Source: Chloroflexota bacterium
GTDB lineage: Bacteria > Chloroflexota > Anaerolineae > Promineifilales > Promineifilaceae
DNA: 44,892 bases
Direction of reading: 5' to 3'
Assembly (NCBI GenBank): GCA_020628815.1
Contig: JAHDEN010000034.1
Location: 1 to 44,892, forward strand
How positions within the stretch are numbered: the first letter of the stretch is position 1; the number at the start of each line of letters is the position of its first letter. The notes under the pieces are model-generated. The model was not told the origin of the DNA and made no database searches. It saw nothing but the letters and a program-made list of their open reading frames with translations. The translations under genes and the position numbers were made by a program. This document shows positions 20,837 through 41,740 of the stretch, one piece after another.

Positions 20837-23575
20837 TTATAAAATATCTGGAAACGATTTCTCACACTGTATAATAAACTCTCTTGCTTTGCCTCGTTGT
20901 TCAATATAAGAAGTTATTCCCAATATTTTCTCTTGCTTACCTCCGGGGAAATTTTCAAAATCAAAATTATGATCGTGTTCATTGTTGTAGTCTATGGAAA
21001 TGATTTTAAGCTGGCCCATTGAATATTTTTGCATAAATTCTCTAAACTCCCGATTTGAAGCTGGCCCATCAACTCCTTCGAGCATTTGCCTAACGTCAAC
21101 GTAGTCTCCAATTTCCTCAATTAAAACTCTTACATCTTTTTTCTCTTCAGCTAATCGGAGTAATTTGTATGAAACTGCAAAATTTGTGCCATGGATTGGG
21201 ACTTTTGCTTTTGCTGGGGACTTTGCATAACTGTTATGAATTGATTCAAAAGTTCCACGGATAATTGCTAGTAAGTCTCTTCTGCTTCCTTTATCTCCTC
21301 TTACTGCAATTGTTATTTTCTTTGAAGGTGCGTTGGATCTTATAATTGCAACACTTTTTTCAAAGTGAATAAGTAATGCGTTTTTCTTTAAATTTTCAGA
21401 CATATTTTTGATCCTATTATGCTCTCTCACAATAAATCGAGAAAATACGCTGGGAGGAACTCCATTTTCGTAATGATATTCAAAAAACAAATTACCTTCG
21501 AATCCTTCATCTTGAATATTTGTGTCAGGCAACAGATCAGGAATTAGATATCGGGCTTCTCCGTCAAATGAGAAAGCTAGTTCAAATTCTTCCATCATGT
21601 CTAATATAAATTGACGATGGCTAGTTGTTTTATATCGATTAGTTTCTAATATAGATGGAGTAATTTTTTTGTCTAAGACACCATTGTTTTTTACTACGTG
21701 CTCAGAATTTATGATGGCGTAAACTCCAGAGGTCACCCACTCGGGATTCAATATATTGGTTTCTTCGAGGATTGGATTTTGCTTGCCAGTAGAAAAATTT
21801 AAAACTGTTCCTAAATCATGTAATAAGCGTAACAAAGTTGGTTGATTATGCTCGTTTATATTTTCTTTTATACACATGTCGGCAAATTGATCGTACTTGA
21901 TGATATCTTTGCTTTCCTTTTCCTTCTCGATTAATTTCTTTACGTTGGCCCAAGGTTTTGGAATTATGTCATTGATGTGAGGCAAAAGTTCAATCGTTTT
22001 GTGCACTTCGGATAGCAGTTCGTCCAGTCCATCATTGTTCTTGCAAGATGTCCTTAAAATGTTTTGAATATTTGGATATTTATCCCTCAGAGCGAATTCG
22101 TTTAGATTGAGCATTGGATTTTCATCAATCCTATTAATCACTAAAATTATGGGTACACCAGTTCCACCATACTGTTCAATTAAGCTAAGCCAATAATCCG
22201 GTCTGTTCGCATTTCGGTCTGTTCTAGCATCAAGTACATAGAGGTAAATACTTCTTTTGGTAAGAAAAAATTGATGAGTGGCATGCATAACTTCTTGCCC
22301 ACCGAAATCCCAGATGTTTAATTGGACATGTCCTTCTTGAGTAGGAAGCTCTAGCGCATTTATTTTTATCCCATTTGTTTTGATACTTTTTGGATCAAAT
22401 GTATTGCTAATCAAGCGGTTAACTATTGAGGTCTTGCCGCTTCCTCCTTGCCCAAGTACTAAGACTTTTATTTCAGAAAGAGGCCTTTCGCTTTTTTGGA
22501 TTTCTTTTAGGTAGGATAGTATGTTATGGGCTAAGTAATTTTCTTTCCACTGAGCTTCTCCCAAAAGCTCTTCGGGGATATCTAGTTGATTTTCATGCAA
22601 CATCAAGGTTTTTAATGTTTCTAAATTAGTTATTTCTTTTGGTAACCGATTAAGAAGATTGTGCGAAAGATTTAAAATTTCGAGACTTTCAAGGCCGATG
22701 AAAGTCAATAATAATTCGGAGATTATGTTGTTATTTACATGAAGAATTTTAAGCCACTTGAGGCGGCATATTTCTTCGGGTAAGGTAGTTAAATTATTGT
22801 GACTAACATTGAGTTCTTTGAGATTTATTAAGTTTTGAATGTCCGCAGGTAAGCTTTCTAATCTATTTGAAGCAATATCTAGCTTCGCTAAATCGGGGAA
22901 ACTGCAAATATTTATCGGAATTTTGCTAAAACCATTGTTACTTAGGTTAAGTTCTTTGAGGTTTTTGATATGCTCAAATCCCTTTGGGAGGCCTTTAAGG
23001 GAGTTTGACTTTAAATTCAACTTTGTAAGATTTTGAAGGTTTTTGATTTCTTTTGGTAACCAATTTAAAGAATTATTTGATAAATCTAAATCCTTGAGAC
23101 TAGATAGACCTCCAATTGCAGTGTCAATGATTCTGATTGAGTTGTCTTTAACATCTAGACGAACCAATTTTTCTAAGTTGCTTATGCTTGAAGGTAAGAA
23201 ATCAAATTGATTTTCTGATAGGTCTAAATCTGTTAAGTTTATTAGATTCCCTATTTCTTCTGGTAAATGATTAATTAGATTGTTTTCTGCATTTAAAACC
23301 TGAAGCTGTGTAAGCTCCCCAATTGATTTAGGCAGTTGATGAATGTCATTATTTGAGATGTTTAACTTATTTAATGATTTGAACTTACCTAAGTCAGTCG
23401 GCAAAGATTTCAGTCTGTTTCCTGATAAGTCTAAAATTCTTAGGTTATCAAGTTCGGTGAATCTCGCAGGTAGACTGCTTAATTCAAAATTGTGGAGGCT
23501 GAGAGATTCAGAACTATTGATAATTGCATTATTAATTAAATCTACAGCTTCTTTGTATCTATTTTGTTGGCTCAT
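20837..23575 (-). CDS. LRR-Roc-COR (Roco) GTPase with C-terminal death-like EAD domain
   Basis: A 912-residue multidomain protein. Thirteen leucine-rich repeats with a 23-residue period (about 42-343, pattern NLxxLNLSxNxLxxLPxEI) precede a Ras-of-complex GTPase: P-loop GQGGSGKT (375-382), switch DFGGQEVMHATHQFF (423 on) and NRID (481-484) in place of NKxD. A COR-type region follows to about 800. The last 70 residues read like bacterial effector-associated domains (FENFPGGKQEKI, ITSYIEQRGKAREFI, ending FPDIL). Roco proteins are dimeric nucleotide-switch sensors; EADs recruit effectors by homotypic contact. GGAG lies 9 nt before the ATG. The gene is strikingly AT-rich and has no CGGCCG, unlike both flanks, so it was probably acquired. 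The domain calls up to COR are firm; the EAD call rests on motif memory. Confidence 0.85.
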   Translation of the reverse strand: MSQQNRYKEAVDLINNAIINSSESLSLHNFELSSLPARFTELDNLRILDLSGNRLKSLPTDLGKFKSLNKLNISNNDIHQLPKSIGELTQLQVLNAENNLINHLPEEIGNLINLTDLDLSENQFDFLPSSISNLEKLVRLDVKDNSIRIIDTAIGGLSSLKDLDLSNNSLNWLPKEIKNLQNLTKLNLKSNSLKGLPKGFEHIKNLKELNLSNNGFSKIPINICSFPDLAKLDIASNRLESLPADIQNLINLKELNVSHNNLTTLPEEICRLKWLKILHVNNNIISELLLTFIGLESLEILNLSHNLLNRLPKEITNLETLKTLMLHENQLDIPEELLGEAQWKENYLAHNILSYLKEIQKSERPLSEIKVLVLGQGGSGKTSIVNRLISNTFDPKSIKTNGIKINALELPTQEGHVQLNIWDFGGQEVMHATHQFFLTKRSIYLYVLDARTDRNANRPDYWLSLIEQYGGTGVPIILVINRIDENPMLNLNEFALRDKYPNIQNILRTSCKNNDGLDELLSEVHKTIELLPHINDIIPKPWANVKKLIEKEKESKDIIKYDQFADMCIKENINEHNQPTLLRLLHDLGTVLNFSTGKQNPILEETNILNPEWVTSGVYAIINSEHVVKNNGVLDKKITPSILETNRYKTTSHRQFILDMMEEFELAFSFDGEARYLIPDLLPDTNIQDEGFEGNLFFEYHYENGVPPSVFSRFIVREHNRIKNMSENLKKNALLIHFEKSVAIIRSNAPSKKITIAVRGDKGSRRDLLAIIRGTFESIHNSYAKSPAKAKVPIHGTNFAVSYKLLRLAEEKKDVRVLIEEIGDYVDVRQMLEGVDGPASNREFREFMQKYSMGQLKIISIDYNNEHDHNFDFENFPGGKQEKILGITSYIEQRGKAREFIIQCEKSFPDIL

Positions 23576-23714
23576 ATTTTAATACTCCAGTAATCGAGTT
23601 TTATTTTTCGATGGATTTTATTTGTAGTTTTGATTATCGTCAAAAATCAGACAAGGTTGTTGATGGATTATGGTTAGTTTTTATTGGCATTCAACAGATC
23701 AAATACCCCGCCGT

Positions 23715-26700
23715 TTACAGCGAATTCCTTTTAGGACATTCGACACCCTGTTGCTTGTAGCGGGGTAGCTCATTGTTTTCAAGCTCGGCCGGATCGCCGT
23801 AACCACCACCACCAGGCGTTTCAAAAATCAAGCGCTCCCCGGCCGGGATTTCAAACTCACCTTTGCCGGGCAGTTCCTCACCCGAGCTGGCAAACCAGAT
23901 TTTCCCCGGCGCACCGGGTCCGCCGCCTGCCAACCCTCGTGCTGGATATTTCATTCGCTCAACCGACAAAAAGAGCATAAACGGCCGGTTTTCGAGACTC
24001 TCAATCTCTAAAATCTGCCCGTGCCCGCCGCGGTATTTTCCTACACCACCCGAATTCTCCCGTAGCTCTCTGCGGTAAATAACCAACGGCGTTGTTGTTT
24101 CCGTAATCTCTACCTGTGACCCCCACACCCCGCTAGGATAAGCGGTGGCCGACAAGCCATCTTTGTTCGGCCGTGCGCCTGTGCCGCCGTTATGCGTTAG
24201 CTCGGCCGCAAAATGAGTCACGTCCCCATCCTGACCCAGATCGACCACATTCCGCATCGGCAGGTCGTACATGCAGGATGCACCCTCGGCCGGGACCTGC
24301 CCCGGCATCGCCTGATGCAAACAGCCAAAGACCACATCCGGCATCAGCTGCCCGATCGTGTGGCGCATTGCCACAGGAGCCGGATGCTGTGCGTTGAGAA
24401 TGCACCCCTCCGGAGCGGTAACGATAAATGGTGCCAGTGACCCCGCGTTGTTGGGGATGTCGCTCGCCACCAAGCAGCGGATGCCAAAGACCGCATACGC
24501 CGTCGCATAGTTGAGCGGCACGTTGATCCCCATCTTTGAACAGGGGGAGGTGCCAGTTAAATCAAGCACCATTTTGTCCGACTCAACTTTGAGAGCCGCT
24601 TCAACGGTGATTTCTTTGTCATACCCATCCATCATCAGGGTGTTTTTATACGTTCCAGCCGGGATTTGGGCGATGGTTTCCACCGTCCCCTGATAGCTGG
24701 TGTTGATGATGTATTCGGCCAGCTCCTCCAGGCCGCTGATTCCAAAATCAGCCATCATCTCGAGAACCCGTGTGGCTCCGACCTCACAGCAGGCGATGAG
24801 CGCATAGGTGTCCCCTTCGTTCTGAATCGGCTCGCGCGAATTGGCTTTAACGATTTGGAGTAAAAGCTCGTTCACAACCCCGCCGTCAACCAGTTTGCAG
24901 GGTGGGATCAGCAACCCCTCGTCATAGATGTCGCTTCCTTCTGGCCCCATCCCCCGGCCGCCCAAGTCGATCAGATGAGACGTACAGGAGGTGTATCCAA
25001 TGACGGAATTTTCTTTAAATATCGGCTGGACTAAGAAGAAATCGTTTAAATGCCCGGCCGCCAGCCACGGATCATTGGTCATGTACACGTCCCCCGGTTG
25101 CATTTGCTCAACGGGAAAGTGATCAAGCATGTATTTGACCCCTTCAGCCATTGTGTTGATGTGGCCCGGCGTGCCGGTCACCGCTTGAGCCAGCATCCGT
25201 CCTTGTAGGTCAAATACCCCGGCCGAAATGTCGCCGCACTCGCGCACAATGGGGCTAAATGCGGTGCGGATCAACACCTGACCCTGCTCTTCAACCAGCG
25301 CCAACAGCCGGTTCCACATGATCTGCAATTCAATCTGGCTTTGTTGGACGGGTATCCCCGCCTGCGCATGAACAGGCAGGGATGCCTGTTCAACCCGTTT
25401 AGCAATAATGTTGCCCGTCCCATCCACAACGGCCGAAAAACCGGGTGTTAGCAGCGTTGTCGTTTGGGCTTCAACGATTAGGGCGGGTCCATCAATCTTG
25501 TCGCCAGCTTGCAACCCATCCCGATAAAAAACCGAGGTTTCTAGCTCACCCACATCTTGCCCAAAATAAACCAGTTGCTTTTTTGCAGGATTGGGCGCAG
25601 CACGCTGCACCCCTACTGTTTCACCGTGTAAGCGACGCGACACTGCCTCACTGGCTACTGATTTCGTGCTAACCGTCACGCTCCAATTCATGATTTCAAT
25701 CGTAAACGCAGGAACCGACCGCTTAAATTGAGCCTGATAAGCGGTGTCATACGCTTGGGCCAAGCTCGCCAAATCCGCTTCGGTCAACGGCCGATTTGGG
25801 ATGTCAACCTCGATCTCATGCCCCTGCCCTTTGTAGCGCATAAAGACCGTACGGGTTTCGACAAGCTCAGCACCCAAAGCCCCCTGTTCAACGATGGCTT
25901 GCGCCTCGGCCGACATCGTCTGGAGCAATCCGTTTATCCCCTCAAAATCAAATTCTTTCAGCGTTGTGTACCCGCTGCGAACAATCTCATAGCTTACTGG
26001 GGCGAATAAGAAGCCGACGGCCGACCCTACTCCCGGATCTTGCGGAATCACGATGCGTGAGACTCCCATCTTTTCAGCCACCCGCGCGGCGTGTAACGGC
26101 CCATTGCCACCAAAGGCGATCATAGTCCGTGACCCCAATTCAAGCCCCTGCTCAACCGCATGGATGCGCCCCGCACTCGCCATGTTTTCATCTACGATCT
26201 GCCCGATGGCAAAGGCGGCCTCGGCCGTGGGCAAGCCCAAACCTTGCCCCACATGCTCTGCAATGGCACGTTTTGCCAACTCTGGCTGGATGGCAAGCCG
26301 CCCCTCGGCAAATGCGCCGGTGTCGATATGGCCCAGCGCGACGTCGCTGTCGGTTACCGTTGCTTCAGTGCCGCTCCGGCCGAATGCGGCTGGCCCCGGC
26401 TCGCTGCCTGCGCTGTCTGGCCCCACCGTTAGCCTGTTCAAACGATCCAGTCGAGCGATCGATCCACCACCGGCCCCAATCTCAATCATTTCGATCACCG
26501 GGATGCGGACCGGCAGACCGGACCCTTTCATAAAGCGTTCTTCGCGCGCGATTTCAAAGTTGCGCGTCTTTTGCGGCTTTCCACCGTCGATAAGGCAAAT
26601 CTTGGCCGTCGTGCCACCCATATCAAATGAAACCACCTTGTCTAGCCCCAAATCTTTGGCGACCTGTGCGGCCAATATCGCCCCACCGGCCGGTCCTGAT

Positions 26701-27503
26701 TCCACTAGCCGGATCGGGAATCGACCGGCCGTTTCAAGCGTGGTCATGCCGCCGCTGCTGGTCATGATGAAAATAGGGCAGGTGATTCCTTCGGCCGTTA
26801 GCGAGCTTTCGAGTTTGGTCAGATAGGTTTGCATCAGCGGCCGGATATAGGCGTTGGCAACTGTCGTACACATCCGGTCAAACTCCCGAACTTCAGGACT
26901 GACTTCGCTTGATAGACTGAGTGATAAATGGGGGCGTTTGGCCATGATGACTTCGGCCAAACGTTGCTCATGAGCTGGATTGGCATAGGCGTGGAGCAGG
27001 CAAATGGCGACTGACGTAACTCCGGCCGCGTCGATCTCGGCCAATACCGGCTCTAGGCTCGCCTCATCTAGCGGGATATGAATCGCACCGTCGGCCGTGA
27101 CCCGCTCATCCACCGTGTAGCACCGTTCCCGTGGCACCAGCATGTCCGGCTTGTCTAGAAACACATCGTACTGGTTGTAACGCCGTTCATAAGCGATCTC
27201 TAAAACATCCCGAAACCCTTTGGTGGTGATGACACCCACCATCGCCCCCTTTTTTTCGATGAGTGCATTGGTCGCCAGCGTGGTGCCGTGGATAAAGCTT
27301 GAAACCTGCTCAGGCTTTATCCCACTGTCATCCAGAGCAAGCCGGACACCGGTAATCGCCCCTTCAACCGGGTCTTGAGCGGTGGTTGGGGTTTTGGCGG
27401 TAATGAAGGTTCTCTCACCACTGCGGGTCGTTTCTAAGGCAACATCTGTAAATGTCCCGCCGATATCTACGGCGATTCTGGCTTGGGTCTCGGGTTGTTC
27501 CAC
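23715..27503 (-). CDS. Hydantoinase/5-oxoprolinase-type HyuA-HyuB fusion
   Basis: A 1262-residue ATP-dependent amidohydrolase. The N-terminal HyuA half has the actin-like ATPase entry IAVDIGGTFTDVALE, SFIHGTTLATNALI, SFDMGGTTAKICLIDGG and FGGNGPLHAARVA. The HyuB half starts near residue 720 (QIMWNRLLALVEEQGQVLIR) and contains GDVYMTNDPWLAAGHLNDF and the C-terminal GGGGYGDPAE. The two halves are usually separate genes in bacteria; the fusion has the size of eukaryotic 5-oxoprolinase. The family opens cyclic amides such as 5-oxoproline or hydantoins with ATP. The start is GTG, supported by GGAG 7 nt upstream. Substrate undecided. Confidence 0.92.
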   Translation of the reverse strand: MEQPETQARIAVDIGGTFTDVALETTRSGERTFITAKTPTTAQDPVEGAITGVRLALDDSGIKPEQVSSFIHGTTLATNALIEKKGAMVGVITTKGFRDVLEIAYERRYNQYDVFLDKPDMLVPRERCYTVDERVTADGAIHIPLDEASLEPVLAEIDAAGVTSVAICLLHAYANPAHEQRLAEVIMAKRPHLSLSLSSEVSPEVREFDRMCTTVANAYIRPLMQTYLTKLESSLTAEGITCPIFIMTSSGGMTTLETAGRFPIRLVESGPAGGAILAAQVAKDLGLDKVVSFDMGGTTAKICLIDGGKPQKTRNFEIAREERFMKGSGLPVRIPVIEMIEIGAGGGSIARLDRLNRLTVGPDSAGSEPGPAAFGRSGTEATVTDSDVALGHIDTGAFAEGRLAIQPELAKRAIAEHVGQGLGLPTAEAAFAIGQIVDENMASAGRIHAVEQGLELGSRTMIAFGGNGPLHAARVAEKMGVSRIVIPQDPGVGSAVGFLFAPVSYEIVRSGYTTLKEFDFEGINGLLQTMSAEAQAIVEQGALGAELVETRTVFMRYKGQGHEIEVDIPNRPLTEADLASLAQAYDTAYQAQFKRSVPAFTIEIMNWSVTVSTKSVASEAVSRRLHGETVGVQRAAPNPAKKQLVYFGQDVGELETSVFYRDGLQAGDKIDGPALIVEAQTTTLLTPGFSAVVDGTGNIIAKRVEQASLPVHAQAGIPVQQSQIELQIMWNRLLALVEEQGQVLIRTAFSPIVRECGDISAGVFDLQGRMLAQAVTGTPGHINTMAEGVKYMLDHFPVEQMQPGDVYMTNDPWLAAGHLNDFFLVQPIFKENSVIGYTSCTSHLIDLGGRGMGPEGSDIYDEGLLIPPCKLVDGGVVNELLLQIVKANSREPIQNEGDTYALIACCEVGATRVLEMMADFGISGLEELAEYIINTSYQGTVETIAQIPAGTYKNTLMMDGYDKEITVEAALKVESDKMVLDLTGTSPCSKMGINVPLNYATAYAVFGIRCLVASDIPNNAGSLAPFIVTAPEGCILNAQHPAPVAMRHTIGQLMPDVVFGCLHQAMPGQVPAEGASCMYDLPMRNVVDLGQDGDVTHFAAELTHNGGTGARPNKDGLSATAYPSGVWGSQVEITETTTPLVIYRRELRENSGGVGKYRGGHGQILEIESLENRPFMLFLSVERMKYPARGLAGGGPGAPGKIWFASSGEELPGKGEFEIPAGERLIFETPGGGGYGDPAELENNELPRYKQQGVECPKRNSL

Positions 27504-27543
27504 GCTTTTGCTCCGAATTTTTAAAGATTTTCGGAATAGTAGC

Positions 27544-27578
27544 GTTGCAGACTAAAGTCGGCAATCTTAGTTTGCGAC
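27544..27578. repeat. Imperfect inverted repeat between divergent genes
   Basis: GCAGACTAAAG (27547-27557) and CTTAGTTTGC (27566-27575) form a stem with one mismatch and one bulge around TCGGCAAT, extended by GT/AC pairs outside. It lies in the 120-nt gap between the hydantoinase start and the next gene and may be a repeat element or an operator. Confidence 0.4.
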
Positions 27579-38885: not shown

Positions 38886-39437
38886 ATGAAAAAACCAAAC
38901 TTGATCGGGGAAAAAGTTGTGCTGCGGCCGATTACAAAAGATGATGCGGCCGAAATGTTTAAATCCTTGTCCGACGAAGAAGGGATGCGCCTGACCGGAA
39001 CCCAAGCTGAATTTACATTTGAGCAAGTTGAAGCCTTTTGTGAGCGTATTTCAAAGGCTGATGACCGGGTTGACTATGCAATCACCCTCAAAACAGACCC
39101 CAGCATGACTTATATTGGTGAGGTGGTTCTGAATCAATTTGATGACGACAACCGCTCTGCCAGTTTCCGCATTGCGTTGCAGGGCAAAGACTTTTATGGT
39201 CAAGGCTACGGAACCGAGGCGACAAAGCTTATTGTCGATTATGGATTTAGCCAGCTTAATTTGCATCGGATAGAGCTCGAGGTTTACGATTTTAATCCGC
39301 GTGCACAACGAGTTTACGAAAAGGCCGGGTTTAAAAAAGAAGGGATCAAGCGAGACGTATTGCTGTGGGAAGGCAGTTATCAGAGCGCAATCGTGATGAG
39401 TATTTTAGAAGATGAGTGGCGCGATAAAAATGACTAA
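38886..39437 (+). CDS. RimJ/RimL-type GNAT acetyltransferase
   Basis: A 183-residue GNAT protein with the usual RimL-like order: LIGEKVVLRPITKDDAAEMF, then YIGEVVLNQFDDDNRSASFRIAL, acetyl-CoA loop GQGYGTEATKLIVDYGF, LNLHRIELEVYDFNPRAQRVYEKAGFKKEGIKRD. These enzymes acetylate N-terminal alpha-amino groups of ribosomal or other proteins, or aminoglycoside-like substrates. The ATG at 38886 follows a TTG directly; no ribosome site is seen, so it is probably coupled to the gene ending 8 nt upstream. Its end overlaps the lspA start. Confidence 0.88.
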   Translation: MKKPNLIGEKVVLRPITKDDAAEMFKSLSDEEGMRLTGTQAEFTFEQVEAFCERISKADDRVDYAITLKTDPSMTYIGEVVLNQFDDDNRSASFRIALQGKDFYGQGYGTEATKLIVDYGFSQLNLHRIELEVYDFNPRAQRVYEKAGFKKEGIKRDVLLWEGSYQSAIVMSILEDEWRDKND

Positions 39438-40014
39438 TCGTTTTAGACCCATTCTGATCATCACTATCATTGTTGTGGCGCTTGATCAGGCGACAAAATA
39501 TTGGGCATGGCTCACTTTTCGTGGTGAACCGACCCAGCGTTTGTTTAACGACATGTTGCGCTTGAGCTACCACGAAAACCCAGGCGCCTTTATGAGTATG
39601 GGTGCTAATCTGCCTGAAATTTGGCGTACAACATTATTTGTAGGGCTGACATCTGTATTTCTACTCTATTTGCTGTTTTATTTGCTGACAGAAGAAGGGT
39701 TTAATTTTACCGCTCTCGCATTTGGTAGCATGATGTTCGCAGGTGGCGTTGGGAATTTGATCGATCGCATTTTCTTCGAGAACGGGGTTATCGACTTCCT
39801 TAATGTGGGGATTGGTAGTTTGCGCACCGGCATATTTAATGTGGCTGATATGGCGATTATGGTGGGGGTGTTTGGCCTTCTGATTTTCGGCCGTATTGCG
39901 CCCGATGATGAGCCTAATCATACTGAAGAAGAAACCAATGAAACGTTTGAGAGCGACGCGCAAGCCGTTGTTGATATGGCAACAGAAGAGGTTGTAAATG
40001 AATCAACGGATTAA
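39430..40014 (+). CDS. lspA: Lipoprotein signal peptidase (signal peptidase II)
   Basis: A 194-residue membrane aspartyl protease with four helices. Motifs in order: ALDQATKYW at 17-25, YHENPGAFMSM at 47-57, GGVGNLIDRIF with catalytic Asp112, and FNVADMAI with catalytic Asp140. It cleaves signal peptides before the lipid-modified Cys of lipoproteins; several such proteins are encoded in this window. After the last helix it has an acidic tail of about 45 residues (Glu/Asp/Thr), longer than usual. The ATG at 39430 is preferred; an in-frame ATG at 39412 would add six residues. Both overlap the previous gene. Confidence 0.95.
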   Translation: MTNRFRPILIITIIVVALDQATKYWAWLTFRGEPTQRLFNDMLRLSYHENPGAFMSMGANLPEIWRTTLFVGLTSVFLLYLLFYLLTEEGFNFTALAFGSMMFAGGVGNLIDRIFFENGVIDFLNVGIGSLRTGIFNVADMAIMVGVFGLLIFGRIAPDDEPNHTEEETNETFESDAQAVVDMATEEVVNESTD

Positions 40015-40543
40015 TGGCGTTGAGCCTGCAGATACCGAAAAACGGATACAAGCCGTGCTTGAGGCACAGGCCAAGAAATGGGGCAGCCCTCTAGTCAATC
40101 ATCTGGTTTATGCGCGGAACCCGCATATTTTTAAAGCGGTTCGTGGGATGTGGGGAGGCTTGGATCAATCAGGCCTGCTCGATGGCAAACTGGTTGCCCT
40201 TGTGAACCGGAGAATTGCGACGATCAATCGCTGCCCGTTTTGAATGGACATTAACGCTGCCGTGGGCAGTGAACTGGGAATTTCTGATGAAAAAATCTTG
40301 GCATTAGATCATTATGCCAGCAGTGACCTGTATTCTGAGCAGGAAAAAGTAGCGCTGCGTTACGCAGATGCAATGACCTATTCTGATCAAGATGCCGACG
40401 ATCAGCTTTTTGCCGAGGTGCAAACCCATTTTAGCGAAGACGAAATCATTGAGCTGACTGAGGCAATCGCATGGGAGAATGCCTCTAGTAAATTTAACCG
40501 TGCATTGCGCATACCGTCTCAAAATCTTTGGAACAGGTCCTAA
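39998..40543 (+). CDS. AhpD-like / carboxymuconolactone decarboxylase-family selenoprotein (in-frame TGA = Sec82)
   Basis: One continuous frame of 182 codons is interrupted only by TGA at 40241-40243. The upstream part reads ALVNRRIATINRCPF and the downstream part MDINAAVGSELGISDEK, EKVALRYADAMTY, DDEIIEL-like EDEIIELTEAIAWENASSKFNRAL: together a full CMD/AhpD-family protein. In relatives this place reads CxFCxDIN, so TGA replaces the second Cys of the redox CxxC, giving Cys-Pro-Phe-Sec. AhpD-like proteins reduce peroxides, and the second Cys is the peroxide-reactive one. A SECIS-like hairpin starts 11 nt after the TGA. AGAGG 6 nt before the ATG fixes the start, 17 bp inside lspA. A nonsense mutation is the alternative, but the remainder is undamaged. 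Confidence 0.82.
40255..40271 (+). promoter_or_regulatory. Putative bacterial SECIS element
   Basis: CGCTGCC (40255-40261) and GGCAGTG (40265-40271) form a 7-bp stem (one G-U) with apical loop GUG. The stem begins 11 nt after the TGA and the loop G is 19 nt after it, inside the spacing usual for bacterial SECIS hairpins, which also need a G at the start of the apical loop to bind SelB. Confidence 0.65.
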
Positions 40544-40546
40544 TCT

Positions 40547-41740
40547 ATGATCGATCCGCAGGAGATAATCGCTAAATACTCTGTTGAGGAGCTGAACCAG
40601 ACGGCCGAAGCTTACTTTAGCCAGATCGCAGACCCGACGCACTTGTTTGTAAAACCGTTTAGCAGTGCGGGTGAGGCGTCGGTGTTGCTTGAAAATATCG
40701 GCTTGCTTTTGTCTGGTGTGCGATTGGGCCATGGAATGACTGTGCTTGAATTTGCGGCCGGTTCTTGCTGGCTGTCCCGCTACATCACCCAGCTTGGCTG
40801 TAAAACGATTAGTGTAGACGTCTCTCAGTCCGCCTTGGATTACGGAAAACAGCTGTTTGAACAATATCCTACCCCGGTAGAGCCTGTAGCAGAGCCGGAG
40901 TTTTTGCTTTTTGACGGGTTTAAACTTGATCTTCCCGATGAAAGTGTGGATCGTATTCTGTGCAATGATGGCTTTCATCATGTCCCAAATCAGAAGCAAG
41001 TTTTGGCTGAGCTTTGCCGAGTCTTAAAACCTGGCGGCATTGCAGGGTTCAGCGAGCCGGGGCGCTATCATTCACAGGGGCCTGTTTCGCAACATGATAT
41101 GGCCCATTTCAAGGTGCTCGAGAATGATATTTTGCTCAATGATGTGTTTGAAAAAGCACAAGCAGTAGGGTTTACAGATATTAGGATCAAACCAATTGGA
41201 AATTTAGAGGTAGGGCTGACGCTTTACAATCGGATGACCAGCTGGCTGGTTACAAAAATGTTGAGCTTTGTTTCTCCTAATACGGCTGAACAACTTTTGG
41301 GGCGCTCTCTGTTTTTCCTTTATAAAGGTGATTTTCAGCTAGACAGTCGTGGTTCGGCCGGTTTGAAGCATGCAACCCGTTTGGAGAACCCTAATCAAAC
41401 TAAATTTGACATCAAGGCTGGGGAGTCCGTGCAGATTCCACTCAACATCACAAACAGTGGTGAAGCGGTTTGGTTGAATCAAAATATTAAGCAAATCGGG
41501 GTAGTTAAGGTTGGAACGCGCTTGAAGGATGCAAAAGAGGGTGTTCTCTTGAATCAATGGACATGGCACGAACTTGAGAGAGAGGTGCGGCCGGGTGAGC
41601 AAATATCGATGACCGTTGATGTACCTTTTGCCGAAGCTGGAGAGTTTGAGCTAATCTTAGACTTAGTGGCGATGGATGTGGCCTGGTTTGAACACCTTGG
41701 CTCGGAGACTCTAAATATTTCAGTGTCAGTTAGTGCATAG
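40547..41740 (+). CDS. SAM-dependent methyltransferase with C-terminal beta-sandwich domain
   Basis: A 397-residue protein. Residues about 60-180 are a class I methyltransferase: motif I VLEFAAGSCWLSRYI (about 66-80), the SVDVS acidic strand, and LCNDGFHHVPNQKQVLAELCRVLKPGGIAGFSEPG. From about residue 285 there is a separate beta-rich domain (FDIKAGESVQIPLNITNSGEAVW, then VRPGEQISMTVDVPF and FELILDLVAMDVAWF) resembling Ig-like or CARDB-type domains found in surface or glycan-related proteins. Similar fusions occur near glycan biosynthesis genes, so a sugar or lipid-linked acceptor is possible. It starts 3 nt after the selenoprotein stop. Confidence 0.85.
   Translation: MIDPQEIIAKYSVEELNQTAEAYFSQIADPTHLFVKPFSSAGEASVLLENIGLLLSGVRLGHGMTVLEFAAGSCWLSRYITQLGCKTISVDVSQSALDYGKQLFEQYPTPVEPVAEPEFLLFDGFKLDLPDESVDRILCNDGFHHVPNQKQVLAELCRVLKPGGIAGFSEPGRYHSQGPVSQHDMAHFKVLENDILLNDVFEKAQAVGFTDIRIKPIGNLEVGLTLYNRMTSWLVTKMLSFVSPNTAEQLLGRSLFFLYKGDFQLDSRGSAGLKHATRLENPNQTKFDIKAGESVQIPLNITNSGEAVWLNQNIKQIGVVKVGTRLKDAKEGVLLNQWTWHELEREVRPGEQISMTVDVPFAEAGEFELILDLVAMDVAWFEHLGSETLNISVSVSA

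Follow-up and report, generated by a model that had tools for sequence, protein, structure and literature searches.

We identified a predicted selenoprotein gene at positions 39998 to 40543, on the + strand, of contig JAHDEN010000034.1 from a draft genome of a Chloroflexota bacterium (assembly GCA_020628815.1); the whole stretch of DNA analysed, 44,892 nucleotides long, is referred to below as the window. The in-frame TGA at 40241-40243 is very probably read as selenocysteine (Sec), so that the two frames on either side of it would yield one enzyme of the CMD/AhpD fold with a Cys-Pro-Phe-Sec centre. Three marks of a bacterial selenoprotein were found together: an in-frame TGA conserved at a redox position, a hairpin close behind the UGA that resembles a selenocysteine insertion sequence (SECIS) and is conserved as a structure, and the genes selA, selB, selC and selD in the genome. 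The main features are as follows.

39985..39991, + strand: Shine-Dalgarno-like GAAGAGG, 6 nucleotides 5' of the ATG, by inspection of the letters
39998..40543, + strand: predicted selenoprotein gene, 181 amino acids on read-through, Met1 to Ser181, stop TAA, CMD/AhpD fold
40232..40243, + strand: redox motif Cys79-Pro-Phe-Sec82, as read from the sequence
40241..40243, + strand: in-frame TGA, predicted Sec codon, residue 82
40255..40271, + strand: predicted SECIS hairpin with six conserved pairs, 40255-40260 with 40266-40271, and loop CGUGG at 40261-40265

A first-pass annotation, made from the sequence without database searches, had noted two frames in the same phase parted by one TGA, and these were recovered at the same coordinates: open reading frames 39998-40243 (81 amino acids) and 40244-40543 (99 amino acids), with the single TGA between them. 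The read-through protein matches the Pfam CMD profile PF02627 at 39.9 bits (gathering cut-off 23) over residues 42-124, a match that spans the TGA and places the protein in the CMD superfamily. In the alignment of AhpD-fold relatives, the TGA occupies the place of the second Cys of the CxxC motif, as had been proposed, and the protein carries the redox pair of AhpD as CxxU. It had also been predicted that annotation programs would split such a gene, and this is borne out among the 120 relatives listed (402 were found), 86 of which are no longer than 125 amino acids; 35 start at a Met directly after the Sec position.

Relatives were collected by scanning species genomes with protein alignment, and 71 loci were obtained from named genomes. 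Two patterns were used in the search: one lay far from the TGA and was thus blind to codon 82, and the other required Cys or Trp codons there. Codon 82 is TGA in 70 of the 70 readable loci, across many phyla, the remaining locus (L085) being dropped with codon 82 outside its coverage. Ktedonosporobacter and Dictyobacter records carry the gene. Cys is found at codon 79 in all 69 rows readable there. Relatives with the TGA but many other disruptions, named in the first-pass annotation as a sign against a selenoprotein, were not seen, and no further stop was found in the matched stretches of the fetched loci. The accompanying expectation that homologues would have Cys at codon 82 holds for relatives of other branches; the fetched loci have TGA throughout.

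Against the nearest locus (L016), the proportion of nonsynonymous differences (pN) is 0.148 before the TGA and 0.101 behind it, with corresponding synonymous proportions (pS) of 0.698 and 0.762; against L017, pN is 0.207 and 0.167, and pS 0.926 and 0.894. By this comparison, both halves of the gene are under purifying selection. Neither chance, nor a pseudogene, nor an error in sequencing would be expected to yield a conserved TGA together with a conserved hairpin and such constraint.

The hairpin had been described as 7 base pairs with a GUG loop beginning 11 nucleotides after the TGA. It is present as claimed; in the window a seventh pair (C-G) is possible, which shortens the loop to GUG. 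Across 71 Sec rows (the 70 loci and the window), which align free of gaps behind the TGA, the six pairs form in 96.0% of cells, with all six formed in 56 rows, five in 14 and four in one. Both sides have changed at two of the six pairs (nine cells), and the covariation score is 0.152, compared with 0.122 in shuffles. Neither the paired percentage nor the covariation score was reached by any of 500 shuffles; 20 of the 500 did reach the count of two pairs altered on both sides, which counts against the hairpin. In the five-base loop, the second base is G in at least 90% of rows and the third is U in 71 of 71. When 25 of the 71 rows were scored together with 19 TGA loci from farther afield, 89.4% of cells were paired, with both-side changes at three of the six pairs, and the distant loci keep the pairs despite differing residues (NAAVGS, NAVGSS, NSAGS); two of them, L118 and L119, seem to use a different register and were scored in the common one. 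Furthermore, the codon for Ala87, a synonymous choice that falls in the stem, is GCT in 67 of 71 rows, compared with 156 of the 1457 Ala codons in the rest of these genes, although the Fisher p of 4e-55 overstates this difference because the rows are related. Nine Cys relatives read from DNA (from four plasmid records, two phylum-sample genomes and three CMD genes of the window's genome) form just one to three of the six pairs; these controls are distant, so part of the difference between Sec and Cys rows may be kinship. The case for the predicted hairpin rests on comparison among relatives and not on the fold of the window sequence by itself.

The first-pass annotation had further proposed a search of the genome for selA, selB, selC and selD, and all four were found, selB in part. 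The assembly comprises 332 contigs and 6.5 Mb. ARAGORN identified a tRNA-Sec (SeC, anticodon TCA). One half of SelA lies on contig C16 and the other on C309, the ends of these contigs sharing 55 identical bases, and a SelB fragment scores above the cut-off (272 bits). SelD (386 bits; G000:C26:6978-7913, L014) has an in-frame TGA of its own, in the context SSSAG-U-AAKLAPGEL, and is thus itself a predicted selenoprotein. In a sample of 400 genomes of the phylum, 116 of which had a match, close relatives of the gene (with the TGA and at least 53% identity) occur in ten, the window's own included; tRNA-Sec was detected in all ten and SelB above the cut-off in nine. The tRNA-Sec model matches 327 of the 400 genomes, and neither SelB nor tRNA-Sec presence singles out the TGA carriers. 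Among 14 control genomes, the Rfam tRNA-Sec model RF01852 scored above its cut-off in five (including Caulobacter, Thermus and Thermotoga), selB in two and selA in one. SelB and SelA look like stricter markers of Sec use because fewer control genomes match them than match the tRNA model, which by itself may overcount Sec users; SelA was counted in the window's genome and the controls. The proposed Sec insertion is supported by the conserved TGA, the conserved SECIS-like hairpin and this machinery.

Several points weigh against this reading. The genome is a draft (77.2% complete, 4.25% contamination) with its sel genes on contigs other than that of the window, and selB is present only as a fragment at a contig end. 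SelB exceeded its threshold in 26 of 28 genomes with the TGA and likewise in 27 of 29 genomes whose listed matches have no in-frame stop, these 57 having been picked from the 116 with a match. Folded alone, the window hairpin is only modestly better than shuffled sequence (z -1.21; 21 of 200 shuffles fold as well), and in the window no Rfam family scores as high as its gathering threshold. At locus L083 the printed motif shows Arg at the position of the first Cys, codon 79 itself being unread. Finally, a peroxidase activity is suggested by the fold alone.

The best surviving alternative, though a quite improbable one, is that translation stops at the UGA and restarts at the directly following AUG, producing proteins of 81 and 99 amino acids. 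An ATG does follow the TGA in the window (40241-40246), in L016 and L017, as it does in 10 of the 19 TGA loci from farther afield, but in 58 of the 71 rows the next codon is CAG or CAA; moreover, the single-domain fold spans the TGA, and a restart leaves the constraint on the hairpin unexplained. Such a restart could still occur as a by-product when selenium is short.

Decoding of the TGA as Trp, or by another suppressor of this organism, is less probable still. It might seem to be favoured by gene calls of the Joint Genome Institute (JGI), which show Trp at the Sec position in 32 of 207 aligned relatives (P0002-P0019 and 14 others), but this Trp is most likely just the letter produced by a gene call that sets TGA to Trp. 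TGA terminates five of the 35 closed open reading frames of the window, the position aligns with Cys in relatives of other branches, and the genome has the Sec machinery, all of which argue against a Trp reading. As a side observation, the JGI Trp letters can mislead residue counts at the Sec site. A broken gene, in which a nonsense mutation has struck a Cys enzyme and both halves are decaying, has practically no likelihood: a single TGA, one base change from the Cys codons TGC and TGT, would suit it, but it is refuted by the conservation of that same TGA in independent assemblies of many phyla, whose matched stretches contain no second stop, and opposed by the low pN of both halves and the conserved hairpin.

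With Sec insertion as the preferred reading, the following mechanism can be proposed. The TGA and the conserved hairpin starting 11 nucleotides behind it are given by the sequence. SelA, SelD and tRNA-Sec would make the charged tRNA, and SelB with Sec-tRNA-Sec would bind the hairpin and decode the UGA. In the finished enzyme, the Sec82 selenolate would attack a peroxide or another oxidised small-molecule substrate, Cys79 as the resolving residue would form a selenenyl-sulfide bond with it, and a thiol reductant of the cell would then break that bond. Bmp8 also appears in the list of fold matches, and reductive dehalogenation should therefore be kept in mind as another activity of this fold.

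Sec has a low pKa, and this property would have to do more work in the window protein than in AhpD, since Ala67 and Asn86 stand where the proton relay of AhpD has its Glu and its second His. As given in the available text of PMC3141380, the relay residues of AhpD are Glu, Cys, His (Tyr in PA0269), Cys and His; their counterparts in the window protein are Ala67, Cys79, Phe81, Sec82 and Asn86. Thus, of the mechanism that had been assumed by analogy with the second Cys of AhpD, the redox pair stands, as CxxU, and the complete relay does not. Asn is found four residues after codon 82 in 71 of 71 rows.

The Cys sister branch, of the Bradyrhizobium type, is about 50% identical to the window protein over most of its length, but has the motif CEYC..H. 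Among 76 Cys rows, mostly of this branch (two, P0020 and P0122, fall among the Sec rows), His86 is found in 70, Tyr81 in 72 and Gln160 in 71, whereas the 91 rows counted as Sec have Asn86 in 91, Phe81 in 90 and Glu160 in 91. Of these, 68 were read from DNA (Asn86 in 68, Phe81 in 67, Glu160 in 68), and the other 23 come from JGI gene calls that show Trp at residue 82, taken as TGA. YnjA-like Cys proteins from four plasmid records resemble the window protein in having Phe81 (CxFC) and, in three of the four, Asn four residues on (Thr in the other); they differ in carrying Cys instead of Sec, Gln160 (four of four) instead of Glu160, and only two or three of the six hairpin pairs.

The contrast at residue 86, His in 70 of 76 Cys rows and Asn in all 91 Sec rows, had suggested that Sec replaces a lost proton relay. 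We reject this idea. The YnjA-like Cys proteins have Asn (three) or Thr (one) at 86, five of 75 Sec rows in a later set have His86, and two other TGA-bearing CMD genes of the window's genome keep the His; residue 86 does not simply follow Sec, because there are Cys rows with Asn and Sec rows with His. Glu160 occurs in 72 of 75 Sec rows and five of 31 others, an association confounded by kinship. The family includes natural forms of a single enzyme with Sec, Cys or Ser that also differ, in a linked way, at positions 81, 86 and 160, which makes the benefit of Sec testable in one scaffold.

When the tree was rooted on the four YnjA-like sequences, the Cys sister branch came out nested within the Sec rows, at nodes of weak to moderate support (88/85, 82/74), with L078 as its neighbour (100/98). 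This rooted tree left out 14 Sec loci, 21 'Trp' proteins and 52 of the 76 Cys rows; an earlier tree left out L082-L084 (shorter than 150 amino acids), proteins below 150 or above 230 amino acids, and those without Cys, Ser or Trp at 82. In approximately unbiased (AU) tests, a single clade of all main Sec rows was not rejected (p 0.15 with L078, 0.322 without). Either a loss of Sec with His regained or a single gain of Sec would fit the tree and these tests. We consider it possible, albeit doubtful, that Sec is ancestral in this branch, a selenoenzyme by default, and spread across phyla, that its makers run several AhpD-fold selenoproteins side by side, as with the four predicted in the window's genome, and that the large rhizobial Cys branch arose from it by Sec loss, regaining the relay His together with a Tyr and a Gln. 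If Sec is indeed ancestral, the Cys branch would be a natural record of what the enzyme must rebuild on giving up selenium.

The first-pass annotation had called this a probable new selenoprotein, which stands for the gene and not for the family, in print since 2005. In their available text, the Sargasso Sea paper (2005) reports AhpD-like CxxU selenoproteins (27 sequences, COG2128), the Global Ocean Sampling (GOS) study (2008) reports 299 'AhpD-like 1' proteins (COG2128, CxxU), a 2022 review labels the AhpD-like family COG2128 (YciW), and a 2026 review names CMD-like and further CxxU families beside the AhpD-like one. Like the window protein, the AhpD-like CxxU selenoproteins (COG2128 YciW), as far as these sources describe them, have Sec for the second Cys and a predicted SECIS hairpin behind the UGA. 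Against TIGR01926, given in the consulted part of the 2026 review as the model for the AhpD-like family, the window protein scores 28 bits, below the cut-off of 81.8. The branch itself is modelled by NCBIfam NF053654 (GroundWater_YciW, 'YciW-related (seleno)protein'), which the window protein matches over its full length (profile 3-179 of 179) at 287.2 bits. The cut-off of 310 is missed by the window protein and by its near neighbour L016 (278.4), and is passed by L031, P0020 and P0122, three of ten relatives scanned; the curated model would therefore leave the window protein unnamed. The name of the model hints at a groundwater survey cited in the part of the 2026 review consulted. A term search of the deep-Sep paper (PMC12013277) returned no mention of AhpD, and the titles and opening abstract lines of the listed papers on selenoproteins in groundwater and metagenome-assembled genomes hold nothing on an AhpD-like YciW family. 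The window gene is a well-supported new example of a known family, just outside the curated cut-off, and not a new kind of selenoprotein. Such genes are stored in databases split into pieces of 125 amino acids or less, or misread with Trp at the Sec position.

Details new beyond the known family are the absence of the relay Glu and second His from the window's branch, the contrast between its Sec forms and the Cys sister branch at residues 86, 81 and 160, and the number of such genes in one genome. In the window's genome, ten CMD-domain genes score above the cut-off; in four of them, an in-frame TGA takes the place of the second CxxC cysteine. The three besides the window gene are as follows.

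G000:C132:3499-3846 (L121:452-1045), - strand: second YciW-like gene, CPFU, its TGA followed by a hairpin; matched part scores 106 bits against NF053654
G000:C211:71298-71453 (L126): CMD-domain gene, CVYU, TGA at the second Cys of CxxC, His at +4
G000:C80:6600-6740 (L128): CMD-domain gene, CEYU, TGA at the second Cys of CxxC, His at +4

The genes on C211 and C80 have His at +4 as in classical AhpD, unlike the window gene with its Asn; Sec thus occurs in forms with and without this His.

The selenoprotein gene is flanked closely on both sides.

39412..40014, + strand: lspA-like gene, overlapping the start of the selenoprotein gene by 17 bases
40547..41740, + strand: class I S-adenosylmethionine (SAM) methyltransferase gene, 3 bases after the stop, PF08241 67.1 bits

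The upstream gene we take to be lspA-like from its sequence, and the same overlapping layout is seen in L016 and L017, the loci nearest to the window; the methyltransferase gene is present at this place in L016 and absent in L017. No neighbour conserved across phyla was found among the 71 rows, in which synteny is limited to the clade (L016, L017) and gene clusters recur in at most five rows, so the gene context helps little in assigning a function.

Elsewhere in the window, 20840-23578 on the - strand encodes a bacterial Roco-type protein with leucine-rich repeats and Roc GTPase, COR-A and COR-B domains, and 23718-27551, also on the - strand, encodes a fused hydantoinase A and B (oxoprolinase-type) protein of 1278 amino acids.
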